This document shows, in pieces, positions 3,240 to 18,545 of a stretch of 64,000 nucleotides of DNA. Within the stretch, counting starts at the first letter, position 1; each line of letters opens with the position of its first letter. Origin of the DNA: Zhongshania aquimaris (GTDB lineage Bacteria > Pseudomonadota > Gammaproteobacteria > Pseudomonadales > Spongiibacteraceae); the NCBI RefSeq assembly GCF_019312595.1, contig NZ_JAHWDQ010000007.1:1-64000 (forward strand), in the 5' to 3' direction. Position numbers and translations under genes: made by a program. The notes under the pieces were generated by a model. That model was not told where the DNA came from. It did not search any database and saw only the letters and a list, made by a program, of their open reading frames with translations.

Positions 3240-3274
3240 AGCGCTCCCACCACACAAAGGCTTAATCGACACAA

Positions 3275-3300
3275 GGCGCAAAGCCAACTCACTTTGCGCC
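3275..3300. terminator. Stem-loop between intI fragment and P450 gene
   Basis: Perfect 9-base arms GGCGCAAAG (3275-3283) and CTTTGCGCC (3292-3300) flank an 8-base loop, between convergent genes. No clear T-run follows on either strand, so termination is inferred from position. Confidence 0.5.
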
Positions 3301-3339
3301 ACTTAGGATTGACTAACCTCACACAGCACGGTTTCGCGA

Positions 3340-4713
3340 TTACTTCACCGCGATACGCTTGACCACGATGGGTAAGTCATCAACCAACTTAGGCAGGGGA
3401 ACGGTCTGCATTTTGCTGCTGAAATTATCGGCCAAACGAAATTCGTATTGACGCAAGAATTGGTGCAGAAAATTTTTCACCTGCATCAGAGCAAAATGCA
3501 TACCGATACATTTGTGCGCCCCGCCACCAAAACCTACCCAGCTAAAGTTATGGCGCTTGTGCTCATTGCGCGGTTCTAGCCAGCGATCAATATCAAACTT
3601 AAGTGGCTCATCCCAGTATTCCGACATTCTGTGCACATGTTGCGGGGCCATCCACACATTGGTGTTTGCGGGCACTTTATAGCCGCCTATCTCACAGTCC
3701 TTTATTGTGCGCCGCTGCATCATCATCACTGAGGGGTGTAGGCGCAGCGCTTCCTTGATCGCAACTTCCATCAAGGGCATTTTTTCAAGGTCCTCATAAT
3801 CAAGAAATGGCTTATCAACGGCATTCGCCTCGTCGCGCAAGCGCTGCTGAACCTTCATATCCTGACCTAAGTAGTACAGCAAATGAGTGAGCGCACTTGT
3901 GGTTGTGTCGTGAGCAGCAAACAGCAGAAAACTGATATGGGCGATAATATCTTGATCAGAAAAATATTCGCCTTCTTCGGTTTTTTCACGACAAAAATAG
4001 CTAAACGTATCGGTTTTACTTGCTAAGCGGCGCTCATTGATAAGGCCGCCAAACAGCGACTTTAAATAGCGCTCGCCAATTTTACCTTTGCGATGCAAGG
4101 TACCAGGCAGCTCCAAGCGCACGATTCCCATCAGGCCATTGGCGATATCGAGAAACGCGGTATTTAATTTTTGTGCACGCTCGTCGTCTGCGTCCAAGCC
4201 GACAAAAATTTCAGCCGCAACATCGAGCAGCAATTGTTTTATCGCGGGAAAAAATCGTAAATCGCTTATCGTATCCCAGTTAGAAATGCCCTCAGCAATC
4301 ATCGGCCCCATTGTTGCTATATAGCCTTTCATCGCATCATTCTTAAACGCCGACTGCATAATTCGCCGCTGAAAGCGATGTTCATCATGATCTCTGAGCA
4401 ACAAGGCGCCTTTGTAGAATCGCCCCAAAGAGCCCATATAACCCATTTCTGCAGAGAAGTTTTTGTCTGTATCAAGCATCACTTGCTTATACAGGTCTGG
4501 GCCGATCAGCATTAAGCCTTTAGGGCCGATCAAACGAAACCGACTTACCGCACCGAAACGCCGGTACTGGCGATCTATCGTCGCGTGTAAGTCCTTGACC
4601 AGCGGTATAGTGTAGCCAAGAACCGGCAGACCGTAATCTCCGGGAATATGATCTAACTTAGTATTGTCCGGCTGTTCTCTGTAATTATCATTCGCGACGA
4701 TGGCCATGATCAT
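3340..4713 (-). CDS. Cytochrome P450
   Basis: This is a full-length P450 of 457 residues. The I-helix oxygen-activation motif AAHDTTT is at 266-272, the K-helix ExxR is EALR at 321-324, and the haem loop FGGGAHKCIG is at 395-404 with Cys402 as thiolate ligand. There is no signal peptide or membrane anchor, so it is a soluble class I-type bacterial enzyme that needs a separate ferredoxin and reductase; none is encoded nearby. It lies 35 bases downstream of the TonB receptor on the same strand and is probably the last gene of that unit. ATG follows AAAGG by five bases. A role in hydroxylating the substrate imported by the neighbouring receptor is inferred. Confidence 0.92.
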   Translation of the reverse strand: MIMAIVANDNYREQPDNTKLDHIPGDYGLPVLGYTIPLVKDLHATIDRQYRRFGAVSRFRLIGPKGLMLIGPDLYKQVMLDTDKNFSAEMGYMGSLGRFYKGALLLRDHDEHRFQRRIMQSAFKNDAMKGYIATMGPMIAEGISNWDTISDLRFFPAIKQLLLDVAAEIFVGLDADDERAQKLNTAFLDIANGLMGIVRLELPGTLHRKGKIGERYLKSLFGGLINERRLASKTDTFSYFCREKTEEGEYFSDQDIIAHISFLLFAAHDTTTSALTHLLYYLGQDMKVQQRLRDEANAVDKPFLDYEDLEKMPLMEVAIKEALRLHPSVMMMQRRTIKDCEIGGYKVPANTNVWMAPQHVHRMSEYWDEPLKFDIDRWLEPRNEHKRHNFSWVGFGGGAHKCIGMHFALMQVKNFLHQFLRQYEFRLADNFSSKMQTVPLPKLVDDLPIVVKRIAVK

Positions 4714-4748
4714 ACTTACCTTTAGTAATGAAAGAGTTTAAGCATCAC

Positions 4749-7379
4749 TTAAAACGTTTGTCTTGCCTCAATACCAAACATTCTGGGTTCCCCCAGCACC
4801 TGCACATAAGTGCCCAAAGAGCTCGCGGTGGCAACAGCGCCAATATCGTATCGCTTGTCGGTCAGGTTTTTTATATACGCACTAATCGTTAAATCTCGAT
4901 CTGGCATAAACCAACTAAATCGCGCGTCTACTAAGGTCGTGGCTTTGGCGTAAATAGACCCTGGGTCGCGTTTGGCAACATCCCAAGAAGCATCATCCAA
5001 GCCCATATACACTTCACTTTTGTAGCTAACATCCAGTCTCGGCGTGAATACGCTGTTCTGGGTGATAAAGGTATATTGAGCACCAAAAGCCGCTGTCACT
5101 TCCGGCGAAACAGCGAAGTCTTCGTCGCTTCGATCCACCGGGACTTTCTGTCCCTTCAAAGCCAATTCAGCTAGATCGAAATCATCAAATTCGATAAAGC
5201 GGTAATTATTATTACTGTAGTTAAAGCTAAACATCAGATTCTCGGTAGGCAGCCAAAGTAGCTCAAGCTCACCACCCTCGATCATGGATTCGCCCGCATT
5301 CTGCGAACTAACAACCAAGGTATTAGCCGAATCGACACTCACGGTAATTAACTGCATGTTTTCGAAGATCATCGAATACAGTGCAATATTTAATCGCAGC
5401 GAATTATCAAAGGCATCTATCTTAAGACCGATTTCTCGGTTTTCTAAACGCTCAGGAGCAACTTCTATTAAGCCATCAACACCAAAGGGTTCTTGAAAGC
5501 CGGATTTAAAACCATTACTCCACGTGCCGTACATCATCATTGAATTTACGGGTGAGTCGAACAGCCATTGTTCCGGTATCACCCAGGCCAATGAGGTCAT
5601 GGGCGTAAACTCTCTGAACACACTATCGAGTTCGTCTTTAACAGCAGGATTTAAAGGCGCACCAATTTCACCGGGATAAGCATTGCGAAGGATATCGTTG
5701 GCAATCTGAATTGGGTCCTCAGCCCATGAACCCAAATAGGCGAAGGCGCCTAAGGAAGGTAACACCGGCACAAAACGCGGATTAGCCGCACTTATCACGC
5801 TGGAGATCTCTTCAAGATTAGCCGTTTGGGTAAATAAGTCTGAGCGTCTAACCTCCTCGGTATAGCGTCCGCCGAAGGTAAATTCTAAATTGTCGGTGAT
5901 ATGCCACGTCGCCTGGGAAAAGATCGCATAGGTCTCACCTTCAATTTCAAAATCCTGCAAGGTAGATACAGGTAGGGCTCCAGCGACTACCGGCAAAGTG
6001 CCACCTGGCACGCTCAATGCGTCAAGCAGACCGTTCAACGCACTCACATCAACACCCGACTGCCCCGCCGCCAAGGCGATGAAAGGCACAGCTTCAGCAC
6101 CAATCAACTCATTGCTAGTCAGGAAGGTTTCACTTTTAAACTCGCTCTGTACAAACAGGCCCGTTGTAAAATCGACTCCGCCGTCAAAGGTACTGCCGTT
6201 AAGTTGCAACTCGGCAGTCAAGGATTCTTGCTCATTATCCCCCAGCACCATTCCACGGAAATACGATTTTGGACCACCCTCGTCGGCTTGGGTTTGCGGC
6301 CCAATTTTAGTTGCATCCCGATAGCCAAGAATCGCTTTCAGATTATAGTCTTCACTGATTTGCCAGTTTAGGGTCGACGCAAGCAACATCACATCCTGTG
6401 CTTTTTTCTGGCGCTGACTGTCTCCCTGATTGGTATTGAGATCCTTTAAGGCGTCGCGGCTATTCGCATTACAGTTATCTTTATAGGCATGTGGATTACT
6501 TGGGTCAGTATCCCCCGCCCATAAAATACCTAGGCCGTTAACAAACAGTGCGTCGTCGTTCACGATCTTACAATGGTATGACGGATAGCGTTCCCGAATC
6601 TTGCCGAAGTAAGCTAATGAATCGATAGAGACGCTGTCACTCAACATCCAATCGGTTTGGAAAATAAATGACAAACGATCTAGGGATTGATTTTCAACGC
6701 CTGAAATATCGTGCAAAAAGCCGTCGCGGCGCTGTGAGCTTATAGCGAGCCGGCTGTTTAACTTATCCGTAATAGGAATATCAAAACCGGCTCTAAAACG
6801 TTGCTCTGAGTAGCTTCCCAGCGCCCCCTCCACGTAGTCATTGCCCTCACCACCCGGCTTTACCAGGCTAAACACTAAGGCACCACCGGTATTATTTTTA
6901 CCAAACAAGGTACCCTGTGGACCGCGCAGAACCTGCACACTTTCAATATCGATGGTGTCCAATAACTGGCCGTCTGGTCTGGGAATAAAAATACCATCCA
7001 GATACACACTTACCGACGGATCAAAGCGAGCGAGACCCGCCCGCTGACCAATGCCACGGATAAAAATTTGCGGCGCGGTACTGTCATTAATCTGTAAACT
7101 GGGCACCGACTTAGCCAAATCCTGTGCGGTTAAAATACCTTGCGCCCGCAGCGCATCGCCGCTGAATGCGGTAATCGCTACTGGGGTTTCCTGGATATTT
7201 TCTGAGCGTTTTCTGGCCGTCACCAATATTTCTTCTAGCATACCGGATTTGGCCGCCCCGCCTTTTTTAGCAACAGTCGCATCTGAAATAGGCTTATCAC
7301 TTGCTGATGATTCGGCGCCGTGGACGAAATTTGCCTGGCAAACCAGAACAAACACCGTCAGTGATTTTATTATTTTCAT
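4749..7379 (-). CDS. TonB-dependent outer-membrane receptor
   Basis: The 876-residue protein has a signal peptide (about residues 1-21, ending near HG-AE), then a plug domain starting with MLEEILVTARKR, and the plug signature VQVLRGPQGTLFGKNNTGGA. The rest is a long beta-barrel ending in an aromatic residue (ARQTF). It belongs to the large FecA/BtuB-like group that in marine gammaproteobacteria often serves uptake of hydrophobic organic compounds. There is no N-terminal signalling extension. It follows the SDR gene by 117 bases and precedes the P450, so it may form part of the B12-mutase unit. The ligand cannot be read from sequence. Confidence 0.92.
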   Translation of the reverse strand: MKIIKSLTVFVLVCQANFVHGAESSASDKPISDATVAKKGGAAKSGMLEEILVTARKRSENIQETPVAITAFSGDALRAQGILTAQDLAKSVPSLQINDSTAPQIFIRGIGQRAGLARFDPSVSVYLDGIFIPRPDGQLLDTIDIESVQVLRGPQGTLFGKNNTGGALVFSLVKPGGEGNDYVEGALGSYSEQRFRAGFDIPITDKLNSRLAISSQRRDGFLHDISGVENQSLDRLSFIFQTDWMLSDSVSIDSLAYFGKIRERYPSYHCKIVNDDALFVNGLGILWAGDTDPSNPHAYKDNCNANSRDALKDLNTNQGDSQRQKKAQDVMLLASTLNWQISEDYNLKAILGYRDATKIGPQTQADEGGPKSYFRGMVLGDNEQESLTAELQLNGSTFDGGVDFTTGLFVQSEFKSETFLTSNELIGAEAVPFIALAAGQSGVDVSALNGLLDALSVPGGTLPVVAGALPVSTLQDFEIEGETYAIFSQATWHITDNLEFTFGGRYTEEVRRSDLFTQTANLEEISSVISAANPRFVPVLPSLGAFAYLGSWAEDPIQIANDILRNAYPGEIGAPLNPAVKDELDSVFREFTPMTSLAWVIPEQWLFDSPVNSMMMYGTWSNGFKSGFQEPFGVDGLIEVAPERLENREIGLKIDAFDNSLRLNIALYSMIFENMQLITVSVDSANTLVVSSQNAGESMIEGGELELLWLPTENLMFSFNYSNNNYRFIEFDDFDLAELALKGQKVPVDRSDEDFAVSPEVTAAFGAQYTFITQNSVFTPRLDVSYKSEVYMGLDDASWDVAKRDPGSIYAKATTLVDARFSWFMPDRDLTISAYIKNLTDKRYDIGAVATASSLGTYVQVLGEPRMFGIEARQTF

Positions 7380-7496
7380 AAGCTCACAACCTTTTATTGT
7401 ATTTATTTTTATTTTTTACAAATGCCTTCTACTGATACCGCTAGGCCTTTACTATCTCAGTTTACATATCTGTCATGCCTGACTTTTATGTAACAA

Positions 7497-8288
7497 CTAC
7501 TTAATTGGCTCGCGCTCCTCGCTAATATTTTGCACACGCGCTAGCATTACCGGTTTAAATTCTGGCTGCGGAAATATCCAAAATTTATTTTCATGTAAAT
7601 CACTAAATGTTTTCTCGGCAATCTCTTCTGCTGGCACGCCGAAGGTGGCTAGCAAACCGTCAATTTCTTTCTGGCTTTCTGCACAGGCCCCACTTAACGG
7701 CGCTGACGCCAGCGAGGTTTTAACCCCAGAAGGCGCAAGAAAAGACACATCCACAGGGGATTTCTTAGCAGTCAGTTCAAGCTGCATCGCCTCGGCAATA
7801 CCCCACAAGGCGTGTTTGCTACTTGAATAGCAACTCAAGTTTTCGCTCGCCATAAAGGCGGAAATTGAACCGGTAAACACCACTCGCGACCGCAGCTCTT
7901 GTTTAAGCAGATGCGGCATAAACGCACTGACCGTATTCATTGCCCCTTTGACGTTAACATCAAAGACCACATCCCAATCTTCTTCGCTAAGTTCCCAAGA
8001 CGTACCCGCGCGCATCACGCCCGCATTGGCAAACACCAAGGCAATAGACTGCCCCTTCACAGTGTCAGCAAAAGCTGTCAAATCACTTCGCTTTCGCACG
8101 TCGACCACCGCGCTACTAACAGAGACTTGATCACCCAGTTCATCAACCATCAAACCCAAAGCATCTGCATTATTATCTGCCAAGGCCAAGTTCATGCCGC
8201 GCTTGGCAGCAGCAATCGCCAAGGCCTTGCCGATGCCGCTGGCGGCTCCAGTAATAACAGCGGTGCGACCAATCATTTCTAGGTTCAT
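7497..8288 (-). CDS. Short-chain dehydrogenase/reductase
   Basis: This classical SDR has 263 residues. The Rossmann motif TGAASGIG (TGxxxGxG) is near residue 14, the ANAG motif near 89, a catalytic Ser is in FTGSIS, and YSSSK supplies the catalytic Tyr/Lys. It is a cytosolic NAD(P)-dependent alcohol/ketone oxidoreductase. The start ATG overlaps the stop of the EthD-like gene (ATGA), so it is translationally coupled as the sixth gene of the operon that begins at 13016. The substrate is unknown. Confidence 0.9.
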   Translation of the reverse strand: MNLEMIGRTAVITGAASGIGKALAIAAAKRGMNLALADNNADALGLMVDELGDQVSVSSAVVDVRKRSDLTAFADTVKGQSIALVFANAGVMRAGTSWELSEEDWDVVFDVNVKGAMNTVSAFMPHLLKQELRSRVVFTGSISAFMASENLSCYSSSKHALWGIAEAMQLELTAKKSPVDVSFLAPSGVKTSLASAPLSGACAESQKEIDGLLATFGVPAEEIAEKTFSDLHENKFWIFPQPEFKPVMLARVQNISEEREPIK

Positions 8289-8884
8289 GAACTGCTAGCC
8301 CCTCGGCTGGCTAATAACATCTCAGGATCGGTTTCCACTCTTCGCACTTTGACAAATTTACTAGATACCGAACCGGGCAATGACGCCGGGCGGTGATTAT
8401 CTAATGTCCACAGTACCGCTTTGGCAGGAAAGGCAGGCTGCTGCCAGGAACTAACCACATCGATAGAGCAATTCGGCTGCGAGGCAATCAGCACCTTCGC
8501 CCACTGACTTAAGTCAAAGGATTCATCGTCCCAGTTGAGTAACACCGCATATCGCTCATTGGCTACCAGACCTGAAGCGAGGACGTGTTCTTCCGAGACA
8601 CCCGGCGCTATTTTGGACTGATCCATAAATCGCCGTTCATCTTCCCGCAAAATATCGCCAACCGGCCCCGTCATTAATTCCATCAGCCTAGCTACATCGT
8701 CGGCCCAAAATTCAGAGATAGTGTCAAAGCCAATATCAGGCTGATCCACAACATGGTTTCTGACATAGCGTGTAAAGGGAAAATGCTTAATCGCTAAGGG
8801 AGCGTGACTATTTTCGTAGTACTGCTGAAATGCCTCGCGGCTAAAATCAGCACGGCGACTGAGTGTACAAATAGATTTCATCAT
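8285..8884 (-). CDS. EthD-like dimeric alpha/beta-barrel protein
   Basis: About 199 residues if translation starts at the ATG at 8884, which overlaps the MeaB stop (ATGA); a longer start at 8905 is less likely because it lies inside meaB. The first about 100 residues resemble the EthD domain (MKSICTLSRR..FS.EAFQQYYENSHAPLA, then Y.RNHV). EthD-family proteins accompany P450 systems such as the ethyl tert-butyl ether cluster, and some act as small isomerases or cyclases. The C-terminal half has no motif I recognise. Its place between the B12 mutase genes and an SDR suggests a step in the same pathway. Confidence 0.7.
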   Translation of the reverse strand: MMKSICTLSRRADFSREAFQQYYENSHAPLAIKHFPFTRYVRNHVVDQPDIGFDTISEFWADDVARLMELMTGPVGDILREDERRFMDQSKIAPGVSEEHVLASGLVANERYAVLLNWDDESFDLSQWAKVLIASQPNCSIDVVSSWQQPAFPAKAVLWTLDNHRPASLPGSVSSKFVKVRRVETDPEMLLASRGASSS

Positions 8885-9870
8885 GACGTGGTGTTGCCCC
8901 TCCATCGCGCAAGCTCGTGACTCGCTGCTGTATACGGATCAATTTCGCGACGTAGAATGCTATTCAAAATATCCTCATCCATACCTTCCATAATTTCGTC
9001 AACGACCGCCTCTCGTAATAAGCAAATAAACTGCTCGCGCTCGCGATGACTTGAACGCTTTACAAAGTGACCGCTGTTTTGTAGATATTCGCGATGCGCA
9101 TCTGTCGCATCGACGATCTCAACAGTGCCTTCTGCACGCTTGGCAACTGCCCGCAATAGCGGCGGCGACCACGCGCTAGCCGTCTTATCTATTTCATTCC
9201 TAGAGACGGATTCCGCACGCAGATGCAACATCAATTCAAACTGGCGGTAGGTGTCGTCGTAGCCGTCGCGATCTGCCTTATTGATCACAAAAATATCACC
9301 AGCCTCCATCAAGCCCGCTTTTACCGCCTGCACCTCATCACCCAGCCCCGGCACACCAATGATTAAGGTGGTATGCGCCAGCGCGACCACATCAATTTCG
9401 TCCTGCCCAACACCAACCGTTTCAACAAAAATCACATCGTAATTCATGGCGTCTAGCACCAGACAGGCATCGTGGCTCGACCGCGATAAACCACCTGCCT
9501 GACCGCGTGTGCCTATCGATCGAATAAACACATCTGGATCAACAGTGTGTTGCGCCATACGCACCCGGTCTCCCAAAATCGCACCACCGGTAAAGGGGCT
9601 AGAGGGATCTATAGCAATCACACCAACTCGTCGGCCACGCCGTCTCTGCTCTGTTATTAAGGTATTCGTTAAGCTGGACTTACCGGCGCCCGGTGGGCCG
9701 GTGATGCCAATAAGGTGCGCACGGCCGGTGTGTGGAAATATCAATGACAGTACGTCTGCGCCGCGCGGATCACCATCGTCCAGCCAGCGTATAGCCCGCG
9801 CACCCGCGCCAATATTGCCGGCGAGTATTTGCCTGGATAGATCGTTGATATTGTCCGCAATGGCGGTCAT
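8881..9870 (-). CDS. meaB: MeaB/ArgK-type GTPase chaperone of a B12-dependent mutase
   Basis: This 329-residue G3E-family P-loop GTPase has GITGPPGAGKSS (Walker A, about 55-66), the conserved IDPSSPFTGGAILGDRVRM segment, VETVGVGQDE and the NKAD guanine-specificity motif. MeaB proteins gate adenosylcobalamin delivery to methylmalonyl-CoA mutase-type enzymes and protect the radical enzyme. It sits in the operon directly after the two mutase subunit genes, with ATGA overlaps on both sides, so it is the dedicated chaperone of this mutase. Confidence 0.93.
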   Translation of the reverse strand: MTAIADNINDLSRQILAGNIGAGARAIRWLDDGDPRGADVLSLIFPHTGRAHLIGITGPPGAGKSSLTNTLITEQRRRGRRVGVIAIDPSSPFTGGAILGDRVRMAQHTVDPDVFIRSIGTRGQAGGLSRSSHDACLVLDAMNYDVIFVETVGVGQDEIDVVALAHTTLIIGVPGLGDEVQAVKAGLMEAGDIFVINKADRDGYDDTYRQFELMLHLRAESVSRNEIDKTASAWSPPLLRAVAKRAEGTVEIVDATDAHREYLQNSGHFVKRSSHREREQFICLLREAVVDEIMEGMDEDILNSILRREIDPYTAASHELARWRGNTTS

Positions 9871-10292
9871 ACCTCAGTGGGCTCCGACTTGTTCAACCAC
9901 CACTCCTGAAGATAGGCAACAATATCTCGGGTATCTGAGCCCATGGTAAAAATTCGATCTACACCTGCGTCCTCCAGCAGTTGTCGGTCTTCCTCGGGAA
10001 TCACGCCACCGGCAAGCAGCAATTTATCTCCCGCCCCCGCTTCCCTGAGCAGACGAGCGAGCTTCGGTAAACTGCGAGTGTGGCCCGCCGACAGTGTGGA
10101 AATACCCACCACATCCACGTCTTCTTGCACCGCTGCCGCCGCCACCATATCGGGTGTCTGTTTTAAGCCAGTGAAAATAACTTCCATTCCCGCTTCACGC
10201 AGCGCGTGGGCAATGACGGTAATACCAACGGTGTGGGTATCCATTCCTAATTTGGCCAACAAAATGCGCAGTGGACGTGTTTTCTTTAGCAT
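9867..10292 (-). CDS. B12-binding small subunit of an acyl-CoA mutase
   Basis: About 141 residues forming a cobalamin-binding Rossmann domain. The DxHxxG motif is present as DTHTVG, followed by the usual GLKQTPDMVAAAA, VDVVGISTLSAGH and LLAGGVIPEED segments. The DxHxxG histidine replaces dimethylbenzimidazole as lower cobalt ligand. I chose the ATG at 10292, one base beyond the large-subunit stop, because residues before it match nothing in the family. As in isobutyryl-CoA and 2-hydroxyisobutyryl-CoA mutases, the B12 domain is a separate polypeptide rather than fused to the large subunit. Confidence 0.92.
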   Translation of the reverse strand: MLKKTRPLRILLAKLGMDTHTVGITVIAHALREAGMEVIFTGLKQTPDMVAAAAVQEDVDVVGISTLSAGHTRSLPKLARLLREAGAGDKLLLAGGVIPEEDRQLLEDAGVDRIFTMGSDTRDIVAYLQEWWLNKSEPTEV

Positions 10293-10293
10293 C

Positions 10294-12042
10294 TTAAAAC
10301 CCACCCAGCTGGCTGTCGGCATGGTATTCACCAAATACCTCGCGCATGGCATGACATAACTCGCCATGCGTTGCGTAAACTTTTACCGCTTCTAAGCACG
10401 ACACCACCATATTGTCGCCATTGATTGCGGCCGCTTTCACCTTTGCCAGCGCAGCATTCACAGCGTCCTGATCTCGGCGCTCACGCAGCTCCCTGACTTT
10501 GGCGATTTGCTCTTCTTCCATCGCGTCATTGAGTCTAAAAATTTCGATTTCACGTTTTTCTTCTGCCAATTTAAGGTGATTAACGCCGACCCATTTGCGG
10601 CGGCCCTCTTCAACATCTTTATTGCGCTCATACTGCTCTCGTCCCAAAGCGCGCTGAAAATAGCCTTTCTCGATGGCTTTAACCGCGCCACCCATGTCAA
10701 ATATTTTGTCCATTTCTGCAAAGGCGGCGTCCTCCATTTGTTTGGTTAAGGTTTCGACATAATAAGAACCCGCCAAGGGATCGATGGTTTCTGCCACCCC
10801 CGTTTCATGGGCAACGATGTGCTGAAGCGCAGCGCCAACGCGAATGGCTTCCTCGGCAGGGAGTGAATGGGCTTCATCGTGCAGTGGCGTTGTCATATTG
10901 TCGCCGGCGCCGCCCAGAGCGCACGCCGTTGCCATAATCGCGAGGCGACCAATATTATTGAGTGGCTGCTGCAGAGTTAGCGCGATGGTGGTTGGCGAGG
11001 TCATCATGCGAATTTTCATGGCGTCTGGATTAGTCGCGCCATAGCGCTCTTTCATTAACCGCGCCCAGCATTTCCTAAACGCCCGCAGCTTGCAGATGCC
11101 TTCAAAGAAATCCATATCGACATTCACAACAAAGTGAAAATAGGGCGCGACCGTGTCGATATCAAAGCCCCGCTTTAAGGTCTCGTCAATGTACGCGCAG
11201 GCTATCGCCAAGCTAAACGCAATCTCTTGAACCGGGTTCGCCTTGGCTGGCTGAAGCTGAGCGGAAATAATCGAAATAGGCGCCCAATTAGGGTGATGGC
11301 GAATAATATATTCGATGCAGTCCGTCGCTAGGCGCAGGCCGTGTTCCGGTGGATAGATATAGCGCCCGACGCAGATATACTCGATCAAAATGCCATTAAC
11401 TATGTGCAAAACAAAGTCTTTTGGATCGACGTTTTTTTTCTCTAGCGCGGCAATAATCATCGCCAAATTTACCGGCTGCGGCGCATTGCAAACGCTCATT
11501 AAGTACTGCAATTTATCAAAGGGCAGATCGAAGGCTTTCTCAAGATCTTCAAGACTGTCCAGCGCCATTCCCGCCCGCCCCACCTCACCCTCAACAATCG
11601 GGTCGTCGCTGTCATAGCCATTGGTGGTCGCCAGGTCGTGTTCTAAAATCAGGCCCGACAAACCCTGATCCAACATATAGCGCGCCCGCTTTGCCCACTC
11701 CTCCCCTTTGCCAAAGCCTGTCACCTGAGTCATGGTCCAAAAATTGGAACGATGGCCATTTGCTTTGGTGCCGCGGGTATAAGGATATTCGCCGGGAAAG
11801 CCAAGATCCTTCATATAATCGAAGCCCAAGGCCTCTAAATCTGCCGGCGAATACAGGGGATTGATTGGCCACTTCAGCGCTTGCGTCTCGAATGACTCGC
11901 GACGCTCGGGGTTTTCCGACACAAATGGCGCGCGGGTTTGCTCCTGCCAACGCTGCGCCTCAGCCGCTATTGTTGAACTACTATTTTGCGCGTCCGATGT
12001 TTGCTTACAGCCCCGAACTTGGTCCTTATGTTCCGCTGTCAT
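10294..12042 (-). CDS. Divergent B12-dependent acyl-CoA mutase, large subunit
   Basis: The 582-residue TIM-barrel large subunit is colinear with methylmalonyl-CoA, isobutyryl-CoA and 2-hydroxyisobutyryl-CoA mutases (DLATTNGYDSDDP, MKERYGATNPDAMKIR, GVAETIDPLAGSYYVE). The pocket differs. The RGPY-type segment is RG-Thr92-Lys93, so the Tyr/Phe/Ile specificity position is changed. The position of the CoA-substrate Arg/Gln (R207, Q198 or Q208 in the three families) is Val225. The catalytic histidine of GYHxxEAG is Gln262 (SAQLQPAKA). It is therefore unlikely to be a methylmalonyl-CoA mutase, and its substrate is unknown. Its start overlaps the SDR stop (ATGA). Confidence 0.88.
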   Translation of the reverse strand: MTAEHKDQVRGCKQTSDAQNSSSTIAAEAQRWQEQTRAPFVSENPERRESFETQALKWPINPLYSPADLEALGFDYMKDLGFPGEYPYTRGTKANGHRSNFWTMTQVTGFGKGEEWAKRARYMLDQGLSGLILEHDLATTNGYDSDDPIVEGEVGRAGMALDSLEDLEKAFDLPFDKLQYLMSVCNAPQPVNLAMIIAALEKKNVDPKDFVLHIVNGILIEYICVGRYIYPPEHGLRLATDCIEYIIRHHPNWAPISIISAQLQPAKANPVQEIAFSLAIACAYIDETLKRGFDIDTVAPYFHFVVNVDMDFFEGICKLRAFRKCWARLMKERYGATNPDAMKIRMMTSPTTIALTLQQPLNNIGRLAIMATACALGGAGDNMTTPLHDEAHSLPAEEAIRVGAALQHIVAHETGVAETIDPLAGSYYVETLTKQMEDAAFAEMDKIFDMGGAVKAIEKGYFQRALGREQYERNKDVEEGRRKWVGVNHLKLAEEKREIEIFRLNDAMEEEQIAKVRELRERRDQDAVNAALAKVKAAAINGDNMVVSCLEAVKVYATHGELCHAMREVFGEYHADSQLGGF

Positions 12043-13016
12043 GCTTGTCTCCCGGCGCGTTCAATAAGTGGGTAGGTCATTTCCCAAAGTTGACGAGCGT
12101 CATCGGGATCGATTGATTTAGCCGTCACGCCATAGCATTTGGGAATCGAGGAATTCCAGATAGGCGCGACAGCACAGTCTTCAATATACAATCCGCCCCT
12201 GCCCTCCAGCTCTGGCGAAACCGCAGCCCAAATCGGTGAGGCCGCCCCTTGCTCAATACTCCGCAAGGGACCACCAGGCAGACTGCCATCCTCTTTAATC
12301 CAGCCCTGCTTTAGCGCGTCCTCAAAGCTGGTATGACGCGCCAAGTTCGTGGCGACACCGCCCGGCGTCACCGCGTGCATTACTACTCCACGCTCTGCAT
12401 AACGCCGGCTGTATTCCACCGCCAGTAGGTTTGCGCAAAGCTTCGCGTGGCCATAGGCTTCAAATTTTTCATAGGGTCGGCGGCGATAATGTAAATCATC
12501 CATGCGCAGCTCAGATAAATGATGTGAACCGGAGGAAACCGTAATGACCCGCGCCGGCGAAGCGGCTTGGAGATTGGTCAGTAATAGTTCTGATAACAAA
12601 AAGGGTGAGAAATAATTTACCGCCATCTGGCTTTCAAACCCGTCAGTGGAGTAAGTCAGCGGCGGCGCCATAAGGCCGGCATTATTGATTAAATACTTGA
12701 GTGGACGATCACCAAAATTATCGACAAACGCGCGTATCGATGTAGCGTTTAGCAAATCGATATAGGCGACATCCGGTGCTTTGACGCCTCGGCTACGAGA
12801 GATGGATTGCGCAACCTTTTCACCGGCGACAATATCGCGAACGGCCAAGGTAACATCAGCACCGGCACCCGCCAGCGCCGACGCAATGGCAATACCCAAG
12901 CCAGAACTTGCCCCCGTTACTATCGCAGCCTGCCCGGACAGGTCGACACCCTGCAGAATAGTGTCGGCCGTTATTTCATCAAAAGGGAGTGCGTCACTCC
13001 GAGACTTTGTCATCAC
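12039..13016 (-). CDS. Short-chain dehydrogenase, retinol-dehydrogenase-like
   Basis: The 325-residue SDR has TGASSGLG (cofactor), NNAG, a catalytic Ser in VSSGSHH and the Tyr-Lys pair in YGHAK. The length and the HHLSELRMDDL region resemble retinol dehydrogenase/WW-domain oxidoreductase-like SDRs. It is the first gene of the minus-strand B12-mutase operon; its stop overlaps the mutase start by four bases. The upstream region is shared with the divergent AraC regulator, so AraC control is likely. Confidence 0.9.
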   Translation of the reverse strand: MMTKSRSDALPFDEITADTILQGVDLSGQAAIVTGASSGLGIAIASALAGAGADVTLAVRDIVAGEKVAQSISRSRGVKAPDVAYIDLLNATSIRAFVDNFGDRPLKYLINNAGLMAPPLTYSTDGFESQMAVNYFSPFLLSELLLTNLQAASPARVITVSSGSHHLSELRMDDLHYRRRPYEKFEAYGHAKLCANLLAVEYSRRYAERGVVMHAVTPGGVATNLARHTSFEDALKQGWIKEDGSLPGGPLRSIEQGAASPIWAAVSPELEGRGGLYIEDCAVAPIWNSSIPKCYGVTAKSIDPDDARQLWEMTYPLIERAGRQA

Positions 13017-13101
13017 CGTCCCTTAGATTTATTATTTTTTTACATTAAAGGCGCGGTGAATAATTAGGGCAATGGCTACAGAGGCATAACCACGCAATAA
13101 G

Positions 13102-13129
13102 AGCACTATCTCGTTAATTTTAGCACTAT
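13102..13129 (+). promoter_or_regulatory. Direct repeat, probable AraC-family operator
   Basis: AGCACTAT occurs at 13102-13109 and again at 13122-13129, exactly 20 bases apart (about two helical turns). It lies in the 129-base gap between the divergent mutase operon and the AraC gene. AraC-type activators typically bind direct half-sites with this spacing. Confidence 0.5.
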
Positions 13130-13145
13130 GTGTTAAATTCCAAAT

Positions 13146-14030
13146 ATGACAATAAAAACAAAACCAATCAGTGTTAAGCAGGCGCAGACCCAGGCAAACC
13201 TGGTGATTCACGCCGTTGAATTACCCAGCGCAAAGGTAGAGTTGTGCGCCTTCCCCGAATTGCAGGCGGAAACCATCGTCGTCACCGAGCAACATTCGGT
13301 GTTATCCCTTGGCCTATCACGCCTGCTAGAACAAGCTGAAGGTCGCTACACCAGCTTCAAGGCACCGCGTTTCCGCCGCTTTGGCACCCTCAATTTTCGC
13401 CCGGCCGACATTCCTTTTGAGGTGCGCGTATCACAGGGCAAATACCACACGATTCGCTGTCGCTTTAACACGAAAACACTGCACGATTTGGGTATCACAA
13501 CAAGTGAACTCGACGAAGCGCAGCTAGAGGCTTGCTTCGACATTCACGCCCCTAGAATTGAAGACGCCATGATGCGCCTGGCCGACGAAGTCGCCAATCA
13601 ATCCAGTGATTCAGCAACGCTGATAGGGGCCTTGCTCACCACCATTGCCGTCGATCTGTCACGCTATATACACGACGCCAAACACCGCGAGCTGCCACAC
13701 CGCGGCGGCTTGGCACCCCGCCACTTACGCCTAGTATTTGCCAGACTTGATCAATTAGGCGCGCCTCCCAGTGTCGCTGAAATGGCTGCGCTATGTGGCC
13801 TCAGTCGCTATCATTTCATGCGCGCTTTTAAGGAGTCGATTGGCGAAAGCCCTAGCAATTACGCCCAGAAGATACTGATGGCACGCGCGCGCGCACTTAT
13901 CGCTTCTAGCGAGCGCCCCCTTGGCGAAATCGCGCAGGAACTCGGCTACACCAGCAACACCGCTTTCTCCGCCGCATTCCGTCGCCACTGTGGGAGATCA
14001 CCGCGCGCTTGGCGAGCCTGCTTGCGATAA
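13146..14030 (+). CDS. AraC-family transcriptional regulator
   Basis: The 294-residue protein carries an AraC-type double helix-turn-helix at its C-terminus (about 195-292): PSVAEMAALCGLSRYHFMRAFKE for the first HTH, and LGEIAQELGYTSNTAFSAAFRRHCGRSPRAWR for the second with its signature. The N-terminal about 150 residues are a sensor domain without a clear cupin motif. It is divergent from the SDR-mutase operon and separated from it by 129 bases that contain a direct repeat, so it most likely regulates that operon. Confidence 0.88.
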   Translation: MTIKTKPISVKQAQTQANLVIHAVELPSAKVELCAFPELQAETIVVTEQHSVLSLGLSRLLEQAEGRYTSFKAPRFRRFGTLNFRPADIPFEVRVSQGKYHTIRCRFNTKTLHDLGITTSELDEAQLEACFDIHAPRIEDAMMRLADEVANQSSDSATLIGALLTTIAVDLSRYIHDAKHRELPHRGGLAPRHLRLVFARLDQLGAPPSVAEMAALCGLSRYHFMRAFKESIGESPSNYAQKILMARARALIASSERPLGEIAQELGYTSNTAFSAAFRRHCGRSPRAWRACLR

Positions 14031-14139
14031 CGAGGCCGCAGTCATTGATATGTAAAGAATGCGTTATATAAACTTATTCTGAAACGTGCTGAGATGGTAG
14101 AAGCGCACCGCAATGCAGACCTTAAACCGCAAAGACCTA

Positions 14140-14517
14140 TCACGCGGCTTTAACGCCATACTTCAATACCGCCGCCGCAAACAGAAACAAGATACCCAGA
14201 ATGTCGACGTAAAGCACTTTAGCGATGGCGTCGTTATAGCCACCAGTACCCAATACCAGTATTGCAAAGCCAATCATACTTACACCGGCCATGATCATCG
14301 CGGCTAATTGGTAAAAAGGGCTGAAGGCTGAAAAAAGAATGAAGCCTCCCAGAATGCCGAAAAGTAAGGCCCGATGACGCAACAAAATTATTAGGTCATC
14401 CCCGGTAAGGGTAACGGCATACGCAGACGCTATCTTTTGACCGGAGATAACACCGACTACAGGGATAATATTTATCAGCCCTACCACCACCAGGCAGAAC
14501 GTAATCCACTTTTCCAT
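14140..14517 (-). CDS. Small integral membrane protein of unknown function
   Basis: The 125 residues are almost entirely hydrophobic, with four predicted transmembrane helices (about 5-25, 47-65, 70-90 and 97-118) and a short polar loop with LTGDDLIILLRHRA between the first two. I do not recognise the family with confidence. It is followed on the same strand by no gene before the AraC gene, which is convergent. A ribosome site GAGCTC precedes ATG at 14517. Confidence 0.7.
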   Translation of the reverse strand: MEKWITFCLVVVGLINIIPVVGVISGQKIASAYAVTLTGDDLIILLRHRALLFGILGGFILFSAFSPFYQLAAMIMAGVSMIGFAILVLGTGGYNDAIAKVLYVDILGILFLFAAAVLKYGVKAA

Positions 14518-14596
14518 GGCGAGCTCCTATTCGTCCAGCTCACGCCGTTAACGCAGTGAGCGTCCGGCGGAGTATTTGAGTCAATTGTTAAGCCAT

Positions 14597-15157
14597 TTAA
14601 CTTAAATATACAAAAATCATAAAAGAACATAAGCCAACAAGTGATGTTATTAAAGTAAGGCGTTTAATTTTGGGGGTTTGCCACGCCATTATAAAACCCG
14701 AAACAAGTAAAGCGAGGATGGAAATGGCAAATACCGCAGCATAAACTTTAAAAGCTATGCCTCCCTTAGCTTTGTGGAGCTGAACTAAATTTCTGTACCA
14801 ACTCGTATTTTTGACGGTGAGCTTGGCAATTAGCTCATTATCCGTTGGCTCTAAAATCACGTCTTTAGAGGAACCCGTCCACTCGAGGAGAAAATGGTTG
14901 CCATAAACCTTGAGCTTTGGCTCGCCCTCAGGGTAACTAGTGGCTAGCCTCTTGAGTTCTAACTGAGCAAGAGTTGCTAGCTCACTAGCATCCAACTGAA
15001 TGGGCTTGCTGAGTTGTATTTCATAGACATCGTCAGTGTAACTGCCTTTTACATTCCAAGTGTATAAAGCGCCCGTAACCATGAACATGGTCGCAACAGG
15101 CAATATAAAAGCCGCCAGCAACGCGTGAAATTTCATTAGTTTCATTCTATTTATCAT
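14597..15157 (-). CDS. PepSY-type membrane protein
   Basis: The 186-residue protein has an N-terminal membrane helix (about 9-30), a periplasmic segment with a PepSY-like pattern (LAQLELKRLATSYPEGEPKLKVYGNHFLLEWTG is the core), and two further helices (about 135-158 and 166-184). Short PepSY membrane proteins are common near iron or redox functions, but their role is ill defined. It stands alone on the minus strand, upstream of the small membrane protein gene. Confidence 0.65.
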   Translation of the reverse strand: MINRMKLMKFHALLAAFILPVATMFMVTGALYTWNVKGSYTDDVYEIQLSKPIQLDASELATLAQLELKRLATSYPEGEPKLKVYGNHFLLEWTGSSKDVILEPTDNELIAKLTVKNTSWYRNLVQLHKAKGGIAFKVYAAVFAISILALLVSGFIMAWQTPKIKRLTLITSLVGLCSFMIFVYLS

Positions 15158-15247
15158 TCATCTTCTCTTGTGTCAGATTCATTTTTTTTCAAACAGCTAG
15201 TTATAACAATTCCGGCAATATATCACTCTGACCTTACAGGATGATCT

Positions 15248-15505
15248 TCATCGTGGCCTGAAAAACGAAAGGGAGTTCAAAAGATGGCGACTCCCGTCGG
15301 TTAGACGAAAAACAATTCCCATTGTTTCTTCCGAGCATTCCGTTCCCTTGCGCATATCGCCTATTTTATAAACCCAATAAGTTATGTAACTCGCGAAAGT
15401 GCTAGTAGGAAGTGCTATCTTGTTCACATACCTTAACGACTCAACGCTGGGTTCTAGGGACGACGCATAACTTTCACCCGATCTATTTTGACTCGCATTA
15501 ATCAA
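15248..15505 (-). CDS. Doubtful small ORF downstream of PPK2
   Basis: An 85-codon ORF whose ATG overlaps the PPK2 stop by four bases, which is its only support. The product has no motif, signal or composition pattern that I recognise. It may be chance; if real it is translationally coupled to PPK2. Apart from this ORF, nothing is visible in 15158-15501. Confidence 0.2.
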   Translation of the reverse strand: MINASQNRSGESYASSLEPSVESLRYVNKIALPTSTFASYITYWVYKIGDMRKGTECSEETMGIVFRLTDGSRHLLNSLSFFRPR

Positions 15506-16251
15506 TGCAAAAACCCGCTTTCTAACATGTCTTCATTGTAGCGTTGAATCAGATTTGAATCAGCGTGTAAAAGTTTTTCATCTTTATCAGCGTAGTCGAG
15601 ACTAGACAGCAGGTCCTTAATCAAATTTATGCGTGCCGCTTTTTTATTATTAGCCCTCACAATCATCCAGGGCGAGATATCATTGTGACTTCTCCGCAAC
15701 ATATCATTGCGGGCTTGACTGTAAAGTCCCCAATTGCTTTGCGCTTCGCGATCAATAGGACTGATTTTCCAGTTTGAAAGTGGGTCTTGTTCACGGGCGA
15801 GAAGGCGAGCTTGCTGCTCTTCTTTGTCTATATCTAAAAAATATTTCCGCAACTGAGTACCGGAATCGATCAGCATGTGTTCAAAGGGCGCCACCATTCG
15901 AAAGAACTGCTGATATTCCGCTTCGCTACAAAAGCCCATAACCCGCTCTACGCCGGCACGGTTGTACCAGCTGCGGTTAAAAATAACGAATTCGCCAAAC
16001 GCTGGCAAATACGGTACATAACGTTGGAAGTACCAGCTTGCTTCGTCGCGTGCGGTCGGTTTACCCAGAGCGACTACACGGGTTTCTCGCGGGCTTAAAT
16101 GTTCAACTATTCGCTTGATGACGCCGTCTTTACCAGCCGCATCGCGACCTTCAATAATCACCATTATGCGGTGATTACTGGCAATAGAATGACGCTGTAA
16201 TTTAACCAGCTCAATTTGCAAGGCGCGCAATGTGTCTTTGTACTGTTTCAT
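15502..16251 (-). CDS. ppk2: Polyphosphate kinase 2
   Basis: The 249-residue protein has the PPK2 core: Walker A GRDAAGKDG (about 32-40), lid/arginine segment LGKPTARDEASWYFQRYVPYLP, Walker B region FNRSWYNRAGVERV and the SPIDREAQSNW segment. It is a one-domain PPK2 that transfers phosphate between polyphosphate and nucleotides; NDP versus NMP preference cannot be decided here. It acts in the cytosol. It is divergent from the hemerythrin gene, with about 400 bases between them. Confidence 0.93.
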   Translation of the reverse strand: MKQYKDTLRALQIELVKLQRHSIASNHRIMVIIEGRDAAGKDGVIKRIVEHLSPRETRVVALGKPTARDEASWYFQRYVPYLPAFGEFVIFNRSWYNRAGVERVMGFCSEAEYQQFFRMVAPFEHMLIDSGTQLRKYFLDIDKEEQQARLLAREQDPLSNWKISPIDREAQSNWGLYSQARNDMLRRSHNDISPWMIVRANNKKAARINLIKDLLSSLDYADKDEKLLHADSNLIQRYNEDMLESGFLH

Positions 16252-16652
16252 CCTTTATTCCCTGCTTTCATTTTTTTATCAAGCTCAGTGACCCTAGACC
16301 TTCTTACTCCGCAGCGGCAATAGTCGCCATACTGGAAATACCACTCTACGACCTAGCCACTTCATCGCGGCACCAAAAGCTCACGCGTAAGATCAACAAG
16401 AAAATGGATTTTCATGTCCTATTACGCATCTCCGAAACTACGCGCAAAAGCAATACCGTTCACCCTGGAATAGCACCGATGTCGACTAAAACCACTTGGT
16501 ATACCGGCTGAAAGATAAACCATATTACAGCGGGTATGTGTGTTAACCGCAGACTATTTGATTCATATCAAACTCTAGCAAACGCCAACTTGATAAATTT
16601 CGAAGCCATAAACGGAAACATCATCGCTGAGCTATTCGGCATCCAGAGAGTT
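16252..16652. other. Intergenic region, no gene supported
   Basis: About 400 bases lie between divergent ppk2 and the hemerythrin gene. Open frames here (for example on + from 16230, and the N-terminal extension from 16536) lack coding character. No repeat or RNA was recognised; it presumably carries both promoters. Confidence 0.5.
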
Positions 16653-17228
16653 ATGGCCATGCACTATATATTGGAGCAACTGGAACAAGATCATCAGCGC
16701 ATTTTGAGAATGATGTATCTGCTGAGTAAAGAGATCGACCAATTAACAGGGCTAGAAAAAGGCAGTGCTAACTGTGATCGCATATTAGAGATTCTCGATT
16801 ATATTCAGGTTTATCCCGAGGTATGGCATCATCCAACAGAAGATGTGCTATTTCAGCAGCTGTTAAGCAAAGAGCATATCAATACCGCTGCGGTTACCAA
16901 GCTCCTGAAAGACCATCCCCGCCTCGAGAGTCTCAGCGCCCAGTTAGCGCTTATATACAGCGAAATTAGACACGCGGATCTTAAGCCGTCTACAAGAGTA
17001 TTACTGCTAAGTCGACACTATTGTTGCAAGCAAATATCCCATATCCATGAAGAGCGGAATATTTTTGCGGCTATCTCAGAGCGCTTCAACGATCAGGACT
17101 GGCAAACCGTCAACGAGGCCTTGCGAGGAAACCTAGCAAATCGTGAAGTCCCCAGCCAGTCAGAGTACATCGATAGATCTGAGCAACTAAACCAAAGCCA
17201 TATCTTAACCAGTATCGGATTGCATTAA
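16653..17228 (+). CDS. Hemerythrin HHE-domain protein
   Basis: The 192-residue helical protein has the metal-ligand pattern of hemerythrin-like HHE proteins: H in LEQDHQRI, HHPTEDVLF, DHPRLE and HEERNIF. Such proteins carry a di-iron site and are linked to oxygen or nitric-oxide stress; the exact role here is unknown. I chose ATG at 16653 (preceded by AGAGAG) because the longer frame from 16536 adds about 39 residues with no family match. It is followed after two bases by the broken hemN, so the two were probably co-transcribed. Confidence 0.8.
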   Translation: MAMHYILEQLEQDHQRILRMMYLLSKEIDQLTGLEKGSANCDRILEILDYIQVYPEVWHHPTEDVLFQQLLSKEHINTAAVTKLLKDHPRLESLSAQLALIYSEIRHADLKPSTRVLLLSRHYCCKQISHIHEERNIFAAISERFNDQDWQTVNEALRGNLANREVPSQSEYIDRSEQLNQSHILTSIGLH

Positions 17229-17230
17229 CT

Positions 17231-17923
17231 ATGGCCAGTATCGCGACACCCACGGAACCACGCGCTAGCGCAGTGCACGGAACGGATCCCAGCTTGATTG
17301 CAAAATACAGTACGCAGGGGCCTCGCTATACCTCCTATCCAACCGCTCTGGAGTTTAGCGAGCAATTTACGGTTGCGGATTACGAGCAGCATTTAAATAC
17401 CGCCCGCAACGACGCCGCGCCCCTGTCGCTTTACGTGCACGTACCTTTCTGTCGCTGGCTTTGCTACTACTGCGGCTGCAATAAAGTGGTGACTAAAAAA
17501 TCGGGCGCCGGCCGAGAATATCTAGACCATATTGCCATCGAAATTGCGCTTTTGTCCGAGCGCATTGGCAACACGCGGCAAGTGTCTCAGTTGCACTTCG
17601 GCGGGGGCACTCCCACCTACCTCGACGACGCCGAACTAACAGAATTAATTCATCTACTGGCGAGCCACTTTAATTTAGGCGACGGTAAAGAGCGGGAATA
17701 CAGCATTGAAATTGATCCGCGCACTGTAACACCAGATCGACTAGCGCTGCTGCGTGGTCTGGGCTTTAATCGTCTGAGTTTTGGTATCTAGGACACTTAC
17801 CCCGACGTACAGCAGCTCCGCGAGGCTAATTTCGATATATGCCCCGAAGCGGGCTTTGCACTAGCGTCGTTCACCAACAATCCCCTGTCGCCACTCGCAC
17901 ACAAGTCCAATACTTGCATTTAG
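17231..17923 (+). pseudogene. hemN: Oxygen-independent coproporphyrinogen III oxidase, broken
   Basis: The first 186 codons match HemN: YTSYPTALEF, the radical-SAM cluster motif CRWLCYYC (CxxxCxxC), LHFGGGTPTYL and EIDPRTVTPDRL up to RLSFGI. The next codon is TAG where HemN has Gln (FGIQD), consistent with a CAG-to-TAG change. The same frame then continues with DTYPDVQQL before losing similarity and stopping at 17923. About 270 residues of the usual about 455 are missing, including the C-terminal substrate domain, so the gene is both nonsense-mutated and 3'-deleted. A functional copy must exist elsewhere if the cell makes haem anaerobically. Confidence 0.85.
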
Positions 17924-17956
17924 CTTTCCGGGAAGATATATTGCCTGCCTAGGCAG
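17914..17956 (+). promoter_or_regulatory. Efflux-operon promoter with MarR-type palindrome
   Basis: TTGCAT (17914-17919) and TATATT (17937-17942) are spaced by exactly 17 bases. The perfect 12-base palindrome CTGCCTAGGCAG (17945-17956) follows at the expected transcription start. A palindrome there, 49 bases before marR, is the normal arrangement for MarR autorepression. Confidence 0.7.
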
Positions 17957-18005
17957 ACATTGTTATCGCAGCAACTGTCATGACATCAACATTGCAGGCT
18001 TAGCC

Positions 18006-18545
18006 ATGAGCTCTAAAAACATCCTCGATCTCGTCGTCGAAAATCCCGACGGACCATACAATCTGGCCGCTTACCAACAAAATGAAAGCATTGGCTACTT
18101 ATTAAAACGCTGCTATAGCTTTTTAACGAACGCCATCGACAAACAGTTGGCCCCCTACGATTTAACCCACCCGCAATTCGCGTTTCTTATGACGCTCAAA
18201 CAGCGGAACTGTTCTACTGCTGCGGAGTTAGCGCGGGAAAGCAACCTCGATACTGGCGCCACAACGAGAATGTTAGATCGACTCGAAGCGAAAGATATCG
18301 TGCTTCGCCAGCGCAGTCTTGAAGATCGCCGCGTTATCAACATTGTGCTTACTGACTACGGCAAGTTAGTCGTTGAAAAAATGCCAGTGATTGCCATTAA
18401 CGTCCTCAATGAGCATCTGCAGAATTTTGACCCAGACGAAATTACCACCCTTAAACGGCTGCTAACTAAGCTGATTTACGAATCTGAGAATAAGGGCTGT
18501 GAAGAAAAAGCCCAGAGTGACAATGCAGTGGAGGGCAAAAAGTGA
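18006..18545 (+). CDS. MarR-family repressor
   Basis: The 179-residue protein has a winged-helix core: LTHPQFAFLMTL, STAAELARESNLDTGATTRMLDRLEAKDIV (recognition region) and RQRSLEDRRVINIVLTDYG (wing). It is the first gene of a four-gene efflux operon, resembling EmrR/MarR control of emrAB. A promoter with an overlapping palindrome lies just upstream. Its stop overlaps the OMF start (TGATG). Confidence 0.92.
   Translation: MSSKNILDLVVENPDGPYNLAAYQQNESIGYLLKRCYSFLTNAIDKQLAPYDLTHPQFAFLMTLKQRNCSTAAELARESNLDTGATTRMLDRLEAKDIVLRQRSLEDRRVINIVLTDYGKLVVEKMPVIAINVLNEHLQNFDPDEITTLKRLLTKLIYESENKGCEEKAQSDNAVEGKK

Follow-up and report, generated by a model that had tools for sequence, protein, structure and literature searches.

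A B12-dependent mutase of Zhongshania aquimaris with a replaced acyl-CoA pocket and possible links to steroid catabolism

B12-dependent mutases of the methylmalonyl-CoA mutase (MCM) fold are known to act on short acyl-CoAs. In the MCM of P. shermanii, we take 13 positions to contact substrate or CoA and nine to contact cobalamin, and we presume the catalytic tyrosine to be Tyr89 of the RQYAGF motif. In 2-hydroxyisobutyryl-CoA mutase (HCM), an aspartate presumably binds the substrate hydroxyl. For human MCM, one paper names Tyr110, His265 and Arg228 as substrate contacts and Arg108Cys as a disease mutation (PMC11988910); Arg108 lies two residues ahead of Tyr110 and hence takes the Arg87 position. 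An HCM homologue was inactive after every rational first-shell change, according to another (PMC11599936). Here, we analyzed 64,000 nucleotides of Zhongshania aquimaris DNA (assembly GCF_019312595.1, contig NZ_JAHWDQ010000007.1, positions 1 to 64,000; hereafter the window). A gene in this window, mutL, encodes a mutase large subunit in which the acyl-CoA pocket has been lost or replaced.

By fold and partners, the mutL product is a member of the MCM superfamily. It has an MM_CoA_mutase domain and the full-length fold, and genes for a B12-binding small subunit (mutS) and a MeaB chaperone lie alongside. A structural model made from 53 aligned sequences, used in place of an earlier one from 16 rows (pLDDT 62.9), gave pLDDT 86.0 and pTM 0.88. 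Foldseek ranked HCM (4r3u) first against this model, with TMq 0.91, root-mean-square deviation 2.1 and 35% identity over 558 columns of chain A. The DTHTVG sequence, a B12 motif of the DxHxxG type, is kept in all 18 small subunits compared (window plus 17 loci), and the P-loop GPPGAGKS in all 17 MeaB proteins (window plus 16 loci). Thus the model fold, PF01642 and these motifs bear out the initial annotation of this DNA, which had taken the rest of the fold, the B12 subunit and MeaB to be intact. The start of mutS is likely at 10292, for a product of 141 aa that matches its relatives. We considered and rejected the idea that mutL is the house-keeping MCM. Contig C6 of the same genome separately encodes an ordinary MCM, a fused protein of 725 aa, and a second, MCM-like match was found in each of seven other mutase-bearing genomes checked. 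These data indicate that the mutL product is very probably an adenosylcobalamin (AdoCbl) radical enzyme. Yet it lacks the pocket features of an acyl-CoA mutase, which makes it a variant within a known superfamily.

To describe the pocket, residues were mapped onto MCM positions by sequence alignment. The comparison held 23 members of the window protein's own family, two of the three proteins of a sister group (L005 was unused) and 39 ordinary mutases, classed as ordinary before counting (31 genome loci, L054–L060 from plasmids, and the P. shermanii enzyme). Omitted from the family rows were L050 (truncated), L029 and L030 (the same as loci L048 and L049), L031 (G179), L070 (G1029) and nine other Sphingobium plasmids. 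Omitted from the ordinary rows were the genus near-copies L009–L023 and L026–L028, along with L095 and L096. At 12 of the 13 presumed substrate/CoA contacts, the window protein differs from P. shermanii MCM, and Arg82, Arg87, Arg207, Arg283, Tyr89 and His244 are among those lost; Thr85 is the only one kept. At eight contacts (87, 114, 195, 197, 207, 244, 283 and 285) its residue is absent from all 39 ordinary mutases, and at four (75, 78, 82 and 89) it is present in one to four of them. Tyr89, the presumed catalytic residue, is Val107 here. Neither His244 nor Arg207 (Gln in HCM) is found. The replacements Y89V, S114I, Q197V, R207V, Y243A, H244Q, E247P, R283Y, S285H, F287V, Q330S and T331P are identical in 23 of 23 family members, and the Arg87 position is occupied by Thr, Ser or Ala. 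Glu134 is invariant in both the family and the sister group; 4r3u has Asp at this position, as do four of the 39 ordinary mutases. Mean net charge over the set of 13 contact positions drops from +4.0 in ordinary mutases to +0.2 in the family, and mean hydropathy there climbs from –2.2 to –0.05. The departure extends beyond the contacts: at 48 of the 150 columns that are at least 90% conserved in the ordinary mutases, the usual residue is never seen in the family.

The initial annotation had singled out Thr92-Lys93, Val225 and Gln262 as changed, and the alignment places them at MCM positions 74–75, 207 and 244. We rejected misalignment as the cause of the odd pocket. The window protein aligns without a gap between about residues 190 and 300, hence with none near residues 225 and 262, and there is no sign in the alignment that Arg, His or Tyr has shifted elsewhere in the pocket. 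A new invariant residue, Arg227, stands two residues past Val225. Nine of the 17 aligned rows displayed have no insertion; L043, L037, L040, L052 and L041 carry one extra residue between Tyr301 and His303, which makes the assignment of positions 283 and 285 less sure in these proteins. The loss of the RGPY tyrosine is real, yet it fails as a diagnostic mark. Position 75 varies among the ordinary mutases (Y in 17, Q in nine, R in six and K in four of 39), so Lys93 alone means little. As a control, we asked how conserved the family is overall: 305 of 495 compared columns are at least 95% conserved within it, and positions 75, 82 and 87 vary. Because the family is highly conserved throughout, the fact that the new residues do not vary adds only modestly to the case. 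The weight of the pocket evidence rests on columns otherwise conserved in the 39 ordinary mutases.

Loss of His244, Tyr89 and Arg207 together could also mark a dead or regulatory paralogue, akin to the beta chain of heterodimeric MCM. We regard this as very unlikely. The large subunit is under purifying selection, with dN/dS of 0.033, 0.039, 0.058 and 0.060 in four close pairs (a fifth, window versus L004, was saturated), and the new pocket residues are conserved. Moreover, the protein comes with its own B12 subunit in 17 of 19 genome loci and its own MeaB in 16, and in the fold comparison MCM beta chains score much worse (TMq 0.60–0.66). An inactive beta-type chain would be nearest to MutA/beta chains and have no B12 partner, and mutL is neither.

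The family is rare and, judging from the tree, monophyletic. A scan of genome contigs found 19 family loci, in Halieaceae, Sphingomonadales, one metagenome-assembled genome (MAG) of Rhodospirillaceae and other MAGs. In a plasmid collection, 38 records matched: 12 Sphingobium plasmids at 80–90% identity and 26 below 60%. The mutase occurs in two of 18 genomes of the window's genus, in six of 390 genomes of its order (one being the sister type), in two of 396 genomes of the order of Croceicoccus, and in one of 398 genomes drawn across the phylum, namely the window's own member. The sister type, 58–59% identical, was found in three genomes of another genus of the same family (L072, L073 and L074, in G001–G003). 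A tree of 64 proteins places the mutase family on one side of a branch with support 100/98. Family and sister group together split from the 39 ordinary mutases with support 100/100; the branch between them is the longest inner one of the tree and was flagged as a meeting of long branches. Sister proteins also lack the CoA pocket and share V107, I132, E134, V225, R227 and Q262 with the family. They differ at positions 85, 195, 197, 247, 283 and 285, which suggests, from these residues, another substrate of the same kind. Their genes adjoin MFS and MarR-type genes and not the EthD/SDR set described below. At two other loci, L048:3364-5118 and L049:9977-11731, the large subunits are 72% identical and a GDSL-lipase-like gene follows; no B12 subunit or MeaB orthologue was found in the stretches of L048 and L049 examined.

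The mutase gene lies in an operon on the minus strand, in the order short-chain dehydrogenase (SDR), mutL, mutS, MeaB, EthD-domain protein, SDR, TonB receptor and P450, with an AraC-family gene divergent (Table 1). The AraC-family protein is the probable regulator of the operon, and the TonB-dependent receptor probably serves substrate uptake. The best PDB matches of the P450 are CYP120 (2ve3) and a lanosterol 14-alpha demethylase (9bat). In a congener, G013 (locus L071), all nine genes recur in this order, and the large subunit is 87% identical. With genes called in the loci from tblastn labels and codon scoring, the recurrent core reads AraC, (SDR), mutL, mutS, MeaB, EthD. Among the 19 genome loci, several of which end at contig edges, orthologue clusters were counted for mutS in 17, MeaB in 16, AraC in 10, EthD in nine and the upstream SDR in six. 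A Rieske oxygenase with a KshA_C domain, best matched in the PDB by 3-ketosteroid 9alpha-hydroxylase, forms a cluster in five of the 19. Further neighbours are SDRs, SnoaL-like proteins, DUF1214 proteins, a sulfotransferase and an acyl-CoA dehydrogenase with APH; each of these neighbours, the Rieske oxygenase included, was seen through one representative. An Rfam scan of window positions 1-20000 at gathering scores returned no match.

Table 1. Coordinates of the mutase gene, its altered pocket codons and the genes of its operon, numbered from the first base of the window
Feature	Position	Strand	Evidence
mutL, B12-dependent mutase large subunit, 582 aa	10294..12042	-	PF01642 9e-155; Foldseek best 4r3u TMq 0.91
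First pocket segment, residues T92-V107 (MCM 74-89)	11722..11769	-	Y75K, T77N, M78G, R82N, R87T, Y89V
Val225 codon, replacing Arg207 (MCM) / Gln (HCM)	11368..11370	-	V in 23/23 family; ordinary R 34, Q 5 of 39
Gln262 codon, replacing His244	11257..11259	-	Q in 23/23 family; ordinary H 39/39
mutS, B12-binding small subunit	9867..10367	-	PF02310 1e-22; TIGR00640 2e-37; DTHTVG motif
MeaB chaperone GTPase	8881..9870	-	PF03308 3e-86; TIGR00750 above cut-off; P-loop
EthD-domain protein, next operon gene	8285..8905	-	PF07110 1e-12
Second short-chain dehydrogenase	7497..8288	-	PF00106 2e-40; conserved in G013
TonB-dependent receptor (probable substrate uptake)	4749..7379	-	PF00593 + PF07715; 74% in G013
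Cytochrome P450	3340..4713	-	PF00067 2e-67; 78% in G013
Short-chain dehydrogenase, upstream of mutL with 4-base overlap	12039..13016	-	PF00106; PRK06196-like, below cut-off
Divergent AraC-family protein (probable regulator)	13146..14030	+	PF12833

Sulfur-related genes recur near the mutase. A sulfotransferase cluster adjoins it in three gammaproteobacterial loci (L032, L035 and L036; Pfam checked on L036), CysD/CysNC clusters are present in L041, L044 and L045 (Pfam checked on L044), and an annotated sulfotransferase (L105:37715-38890) lies about 29 kb from the mutase on plasmid pMSHV. Do these neighbours point to sulfated substrates or intermediates?

In several relatives, the mutase gene sits in a steroid-degradation island. 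On pMSHV of Sphingobium herbicidovorans, the mutase is at 375928-377646 and ring-degradation genes start about 29 kb on. We take these to be ipdA/ipdB, hsaC, hsaA, hsaD, hsaB, hsaE, hsaG and hsaF, names that differ from the annotation; further acyl-CoA genes are interspersed among them. About 18 kb on the mutase's other side is a flavoprotein gene with 3-oxosteroid 1-dehydrogenase as its best PDB match (3e-141). The same gene run, 46–92% identical, is found on the mutase contig of Sphingomonas jatrophae (G757) and Novosphingobium aquimarinum (G756), about 28 kb and 27 kb, respectively, from IpdA-like gene to mutase, so that in these three alphaproteobacterial genera the distance is 27–29 kb. 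A fourth genome, Sphingobium vermicomposti (G760), has the two about 76 kb apart. All 16 mutase-bearing genomes examined (13 family, three sister type) contain an HsaC-like gene as well as an IpdA-like one. In the order of Croceicoccus, an IpdA-like gene at 1e-80 or better is present in 37 of 392 genomes versus six of six that bear the mutase; plain multiplication, which ignores kinship, puts the chance of this at about 7e-7. These data suggest that the mutase probably acts in steroid or terpenoid catabolism.

Eleven of the 12 Sphingobium plasmids bear Tom- strain names, and the twelfth belongs to S. herbicidovorans MH. Four of the plasmids are nearly equal in length and may represent one lineage. 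In PMC10653915, isolates with Tom- names, obtained from soil treated with alpha-tomatine, and a strain from tomato roots are described as alpha-tomatine degraders, S. herbicidovorans MH is reported to degrade alpha-tomatine to intermediates, and at least four of the eleven plasmid names (TomTYG65, TomTYG72, TomTYG74 and TomMM15) are matched. The terms mutase and cobalamin are absent from the main text of that paper. This plasmid set is biased by the procedure with which the strains were isolated.

How might such an enzyme work? The reading we prefer, at about an even chance, is that the mutL product is an AdoCbl mutase whose CoA tunnel has been remodelled to take a hydrophobic, polycyclic compound, with a steroid or kindred isoprenoid not attached to CoA as the likeliest substrate. 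The barrel no longer has the four arginines, or much of the small polar lining, used for CoA; with Ile, Val, Tyr, His and Met there instead, it would suit a hydrophobic ring system better than a pantetheine phosphate. We lean clearly, if not strongly, towards a substrate that is not a CoA thioester. Because oxygenase and SDR genes adjoin the mutase, the substrate may be oxidised: the oxygenase (the P450 here; a Rieske or ferredoxin-P450 near relatives) and the SDR would yield a keto or aldehyde compound, perhaps hydroxylated, which would enter the barrel. There, the adenosyl radical would take a hydrogen from a neighbouring carbon, and a 1,2-shift of the carbonyl-bearing group would relocate a branch or ring bond, with no thioester required for the shift. 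Glu134 (Asp in HCM) and Gln262 (for His244) could hold polar groups beside cobalt, and the product would pass to ring degradation. One example, by an analogy that we assume, is a 1,2-carbonyl shift of the Dowd-Beckwith kind, by which a branching or quaternary methyl would become part of a ring or of an unbranched chain. A carbonyl shift as the actual reaction is a tentative proposal, less probable than its alternatives taken together. One such alternative is that the enzyme uses AdoCbl on a free steroid to shift or eliminate a hydroxyl, an outcome like that of diol dehydratase on an MCM scaffold, with no carbon shift. The invariant Glu134 and the oxygenase genes close by are consistent with this chemistry. 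We consider it unlikely: the fold is nearest to HCM and MCM, no diol dehydratase was among 50 Foldseek matches at 0.001, and we know of no enzyme of this large-subunit family that does so.

The strongest rival to a free polycyclic substrate is a steroid-CoA mutase in which CoA binds at a newly built site. Such an enzyme would take a pregnane-20-carboxyl-CoA, which carries an isobutyryl-type branch, and transfer its C22 thioester to the C21 methyl, thereby unbranching the side chain. The chemistry is that of known family members such as isobutyryl-CoA mutase, and genes for acyl-CoA dehydrogenase and phosphotransferase adjoin the mutase in some loci. Sphingomonadaceae, moreover, are missing most of the steroid side-chain enzymes described so far, and their own route has yet to be described, according to one paper (PMC8399759). 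Still, the presumed CoA contacts are gone and their sites nearly uncharged, and in the order of Croceicoccus the mutase is far rarer (two of 396 genomes) than IpdA-like genes (37 of 392), which speaks against a general role in side-chain breakdown there. On balance, we judge it improbable, though well ahead of the remaining alternatives. The initial annotation had proposed an uncharacterised acyl-CoA, perhaps a bulky or branched one. Its premises of a non-canonical pocket and an intact AdoCbl system stand, and bulky seems apt; an acyl-CoA substrate is doubtful because the presumed contacts to the CoA moiety are lost and because several relatives have steroid or terpenoid genes nearby. A mutase for a bulky or branched acyl-CoA with no link to steroids would fit the superfamily and the acyl-CoA genes near some relatives, yet the same loss of contacts, together with the steroid islands in three genera, makes it quite unlikely.

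Several observations weigh against a free steroid-type substrate. The contact positions are presumed ones. Model quality is weak at residues 94-96 (pLDDT below 50) and around residue 350. Arg227 and Lys/Arg267, new basic residues that are invariant or conserved, could rebuild a CoA site, as the steroid-CoA alternative would have it. Ala139 and Glu370 persist among the presumed cobalamin contacts, and Phe117, Val206, Arg207, Glu247 and Gly333 are altered; because of these alterations, we can only infer use of AdoCbl. Mutase-less genomes of the window's genus mostly carry the ring-degradation genes as well (HsaC-like in 14 of 16, one of them weak at 6e-35; IpdA-like in 13 of 16), so these genes do not discriminate within this genus. 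In the window's genome, HsaC-like matches are on contigs C1 and C5 and IpdA-like matches on C1, and there is no match to either on contig C10, which carries the mutase. The stretches examined of several family loci, e.g. L042, L046 and L047, contain no clear steroid gene. Finally, the KshA_C, SDR and P450 families are broad, which limits what gene context can tell.

Other parts of the window hold features of separate interest. A fused two-part acyl-CoA dehydrogenase (25920-28169, minus strand) lies with the gene at 23012-25920. Its best PDB match is Tcur3483, and the other half matches Tcur3481; both are presumably steroid side-chain enzymes. Two more acyl-CoA dehydrogenase genes and an enoyl-CoA hydratase gene adjoin it, and the whole is possibly a steroid side-chain set. 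At 50969-54493 (plus strand), an MMPL transporter with a sterol-sensing-domain match adjoins a LolA-like/DUF1329 protein. Both the fused dehydrogenase and this transporter are further candidates in the window for the degradation of hydrophobic compounds. A catabolic run at 33869-45186 (plus strand) has two Rieske oxygenases, a thiamine pyrophosphate enzyme with PDB relatives that include oxalyl-CoA decarboxylase and 2-hydroxyacyl-CoA lyase, a type III CoA-transferase, an acyl-CoA dehydrogenase, an enoyl-CoA hydratase, a TonB receptor and a TauD-type dioxygenase. The protein encoded at 192-2450 (minus strand) has Mrr_cat and nSTAND3 domains, in a stretch with GC 0.363 versus about 0.5, and looks like an acquired defence-type gene. 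Two open reading frames, 17231-17791 and 18006-18545, occupy 17231-18545 (plus strand); the first presumably resembles the front part of oxygen-independent coproporphyrinogen oxidase, and the gene may be split. Close together, 45819-47258 (minus) and 48345-49415 (plus) give the same weak DAP_DH_C match.

If rearrangement of a free steroid is real, it would add to bacterial steroid catabolism a type of step not yet on record and provide a starting point for enzymatic editing of steroid skeletons. A branch without CoA binding, if true, would likewise widen the natural radical chemistry of AdoCbl. It is conceivable, though less likely than not, that this is the first AdoCbl mutase of the MCM superfamily to act on a free polycyclic substrate, one that rearranges an oxidised steroid or triterpenoid skeleton, with at least two specificities once the sister group is included. 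The mutase is also a specific candidate for steps that are still unexplained in how Sphingomonadaceae and Halieaceae break down steroids, sterols or saponins. No B12 mutase acting on steroids was found in the literature among the best matches listed, which covered few subscription papers and so give weak evidence of absence. For Novosphingobium tardaugens, the accessible parts of two papers (PMC6895838, PMC7793797) mention an ordinary MCM in connection with propionyl-CoA only. The 9,10-seco steroid islands of Sphingomonadaceae (hsa/tes, ipd) are the described pathway most akin in context, in that they house relatives of the mutase in three genera.

Among enzymes, the closest solved relative by sequence (2e-112) as well as fold is HCM (HcmA/HcmB, 4r3u). 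Like it, the window's enzyme has separate large and B12 subunits and an acidic residue at the Glu134 position. Yet the HCM-type proteins L056 and L057 keep Arg82, Arg87, Ser114, Gln197, Tyr243, His244 and Arg283, all of which are replaced here. IcmF, the isobutyryl/pivalyl-CoA mutase, is also a carbon-skeleton mutase of the same superfamily, but it is a single fused protein, matches only residues 228-574 (4e-45) and is more distant by fold (TMq 0.71–0.78). With MCM itself, the window's enzyme shares the fold and the partner proteins, but mutL is only 34–35% identical to it and retains just one of its 13 presumed substrate and CoA contacts.

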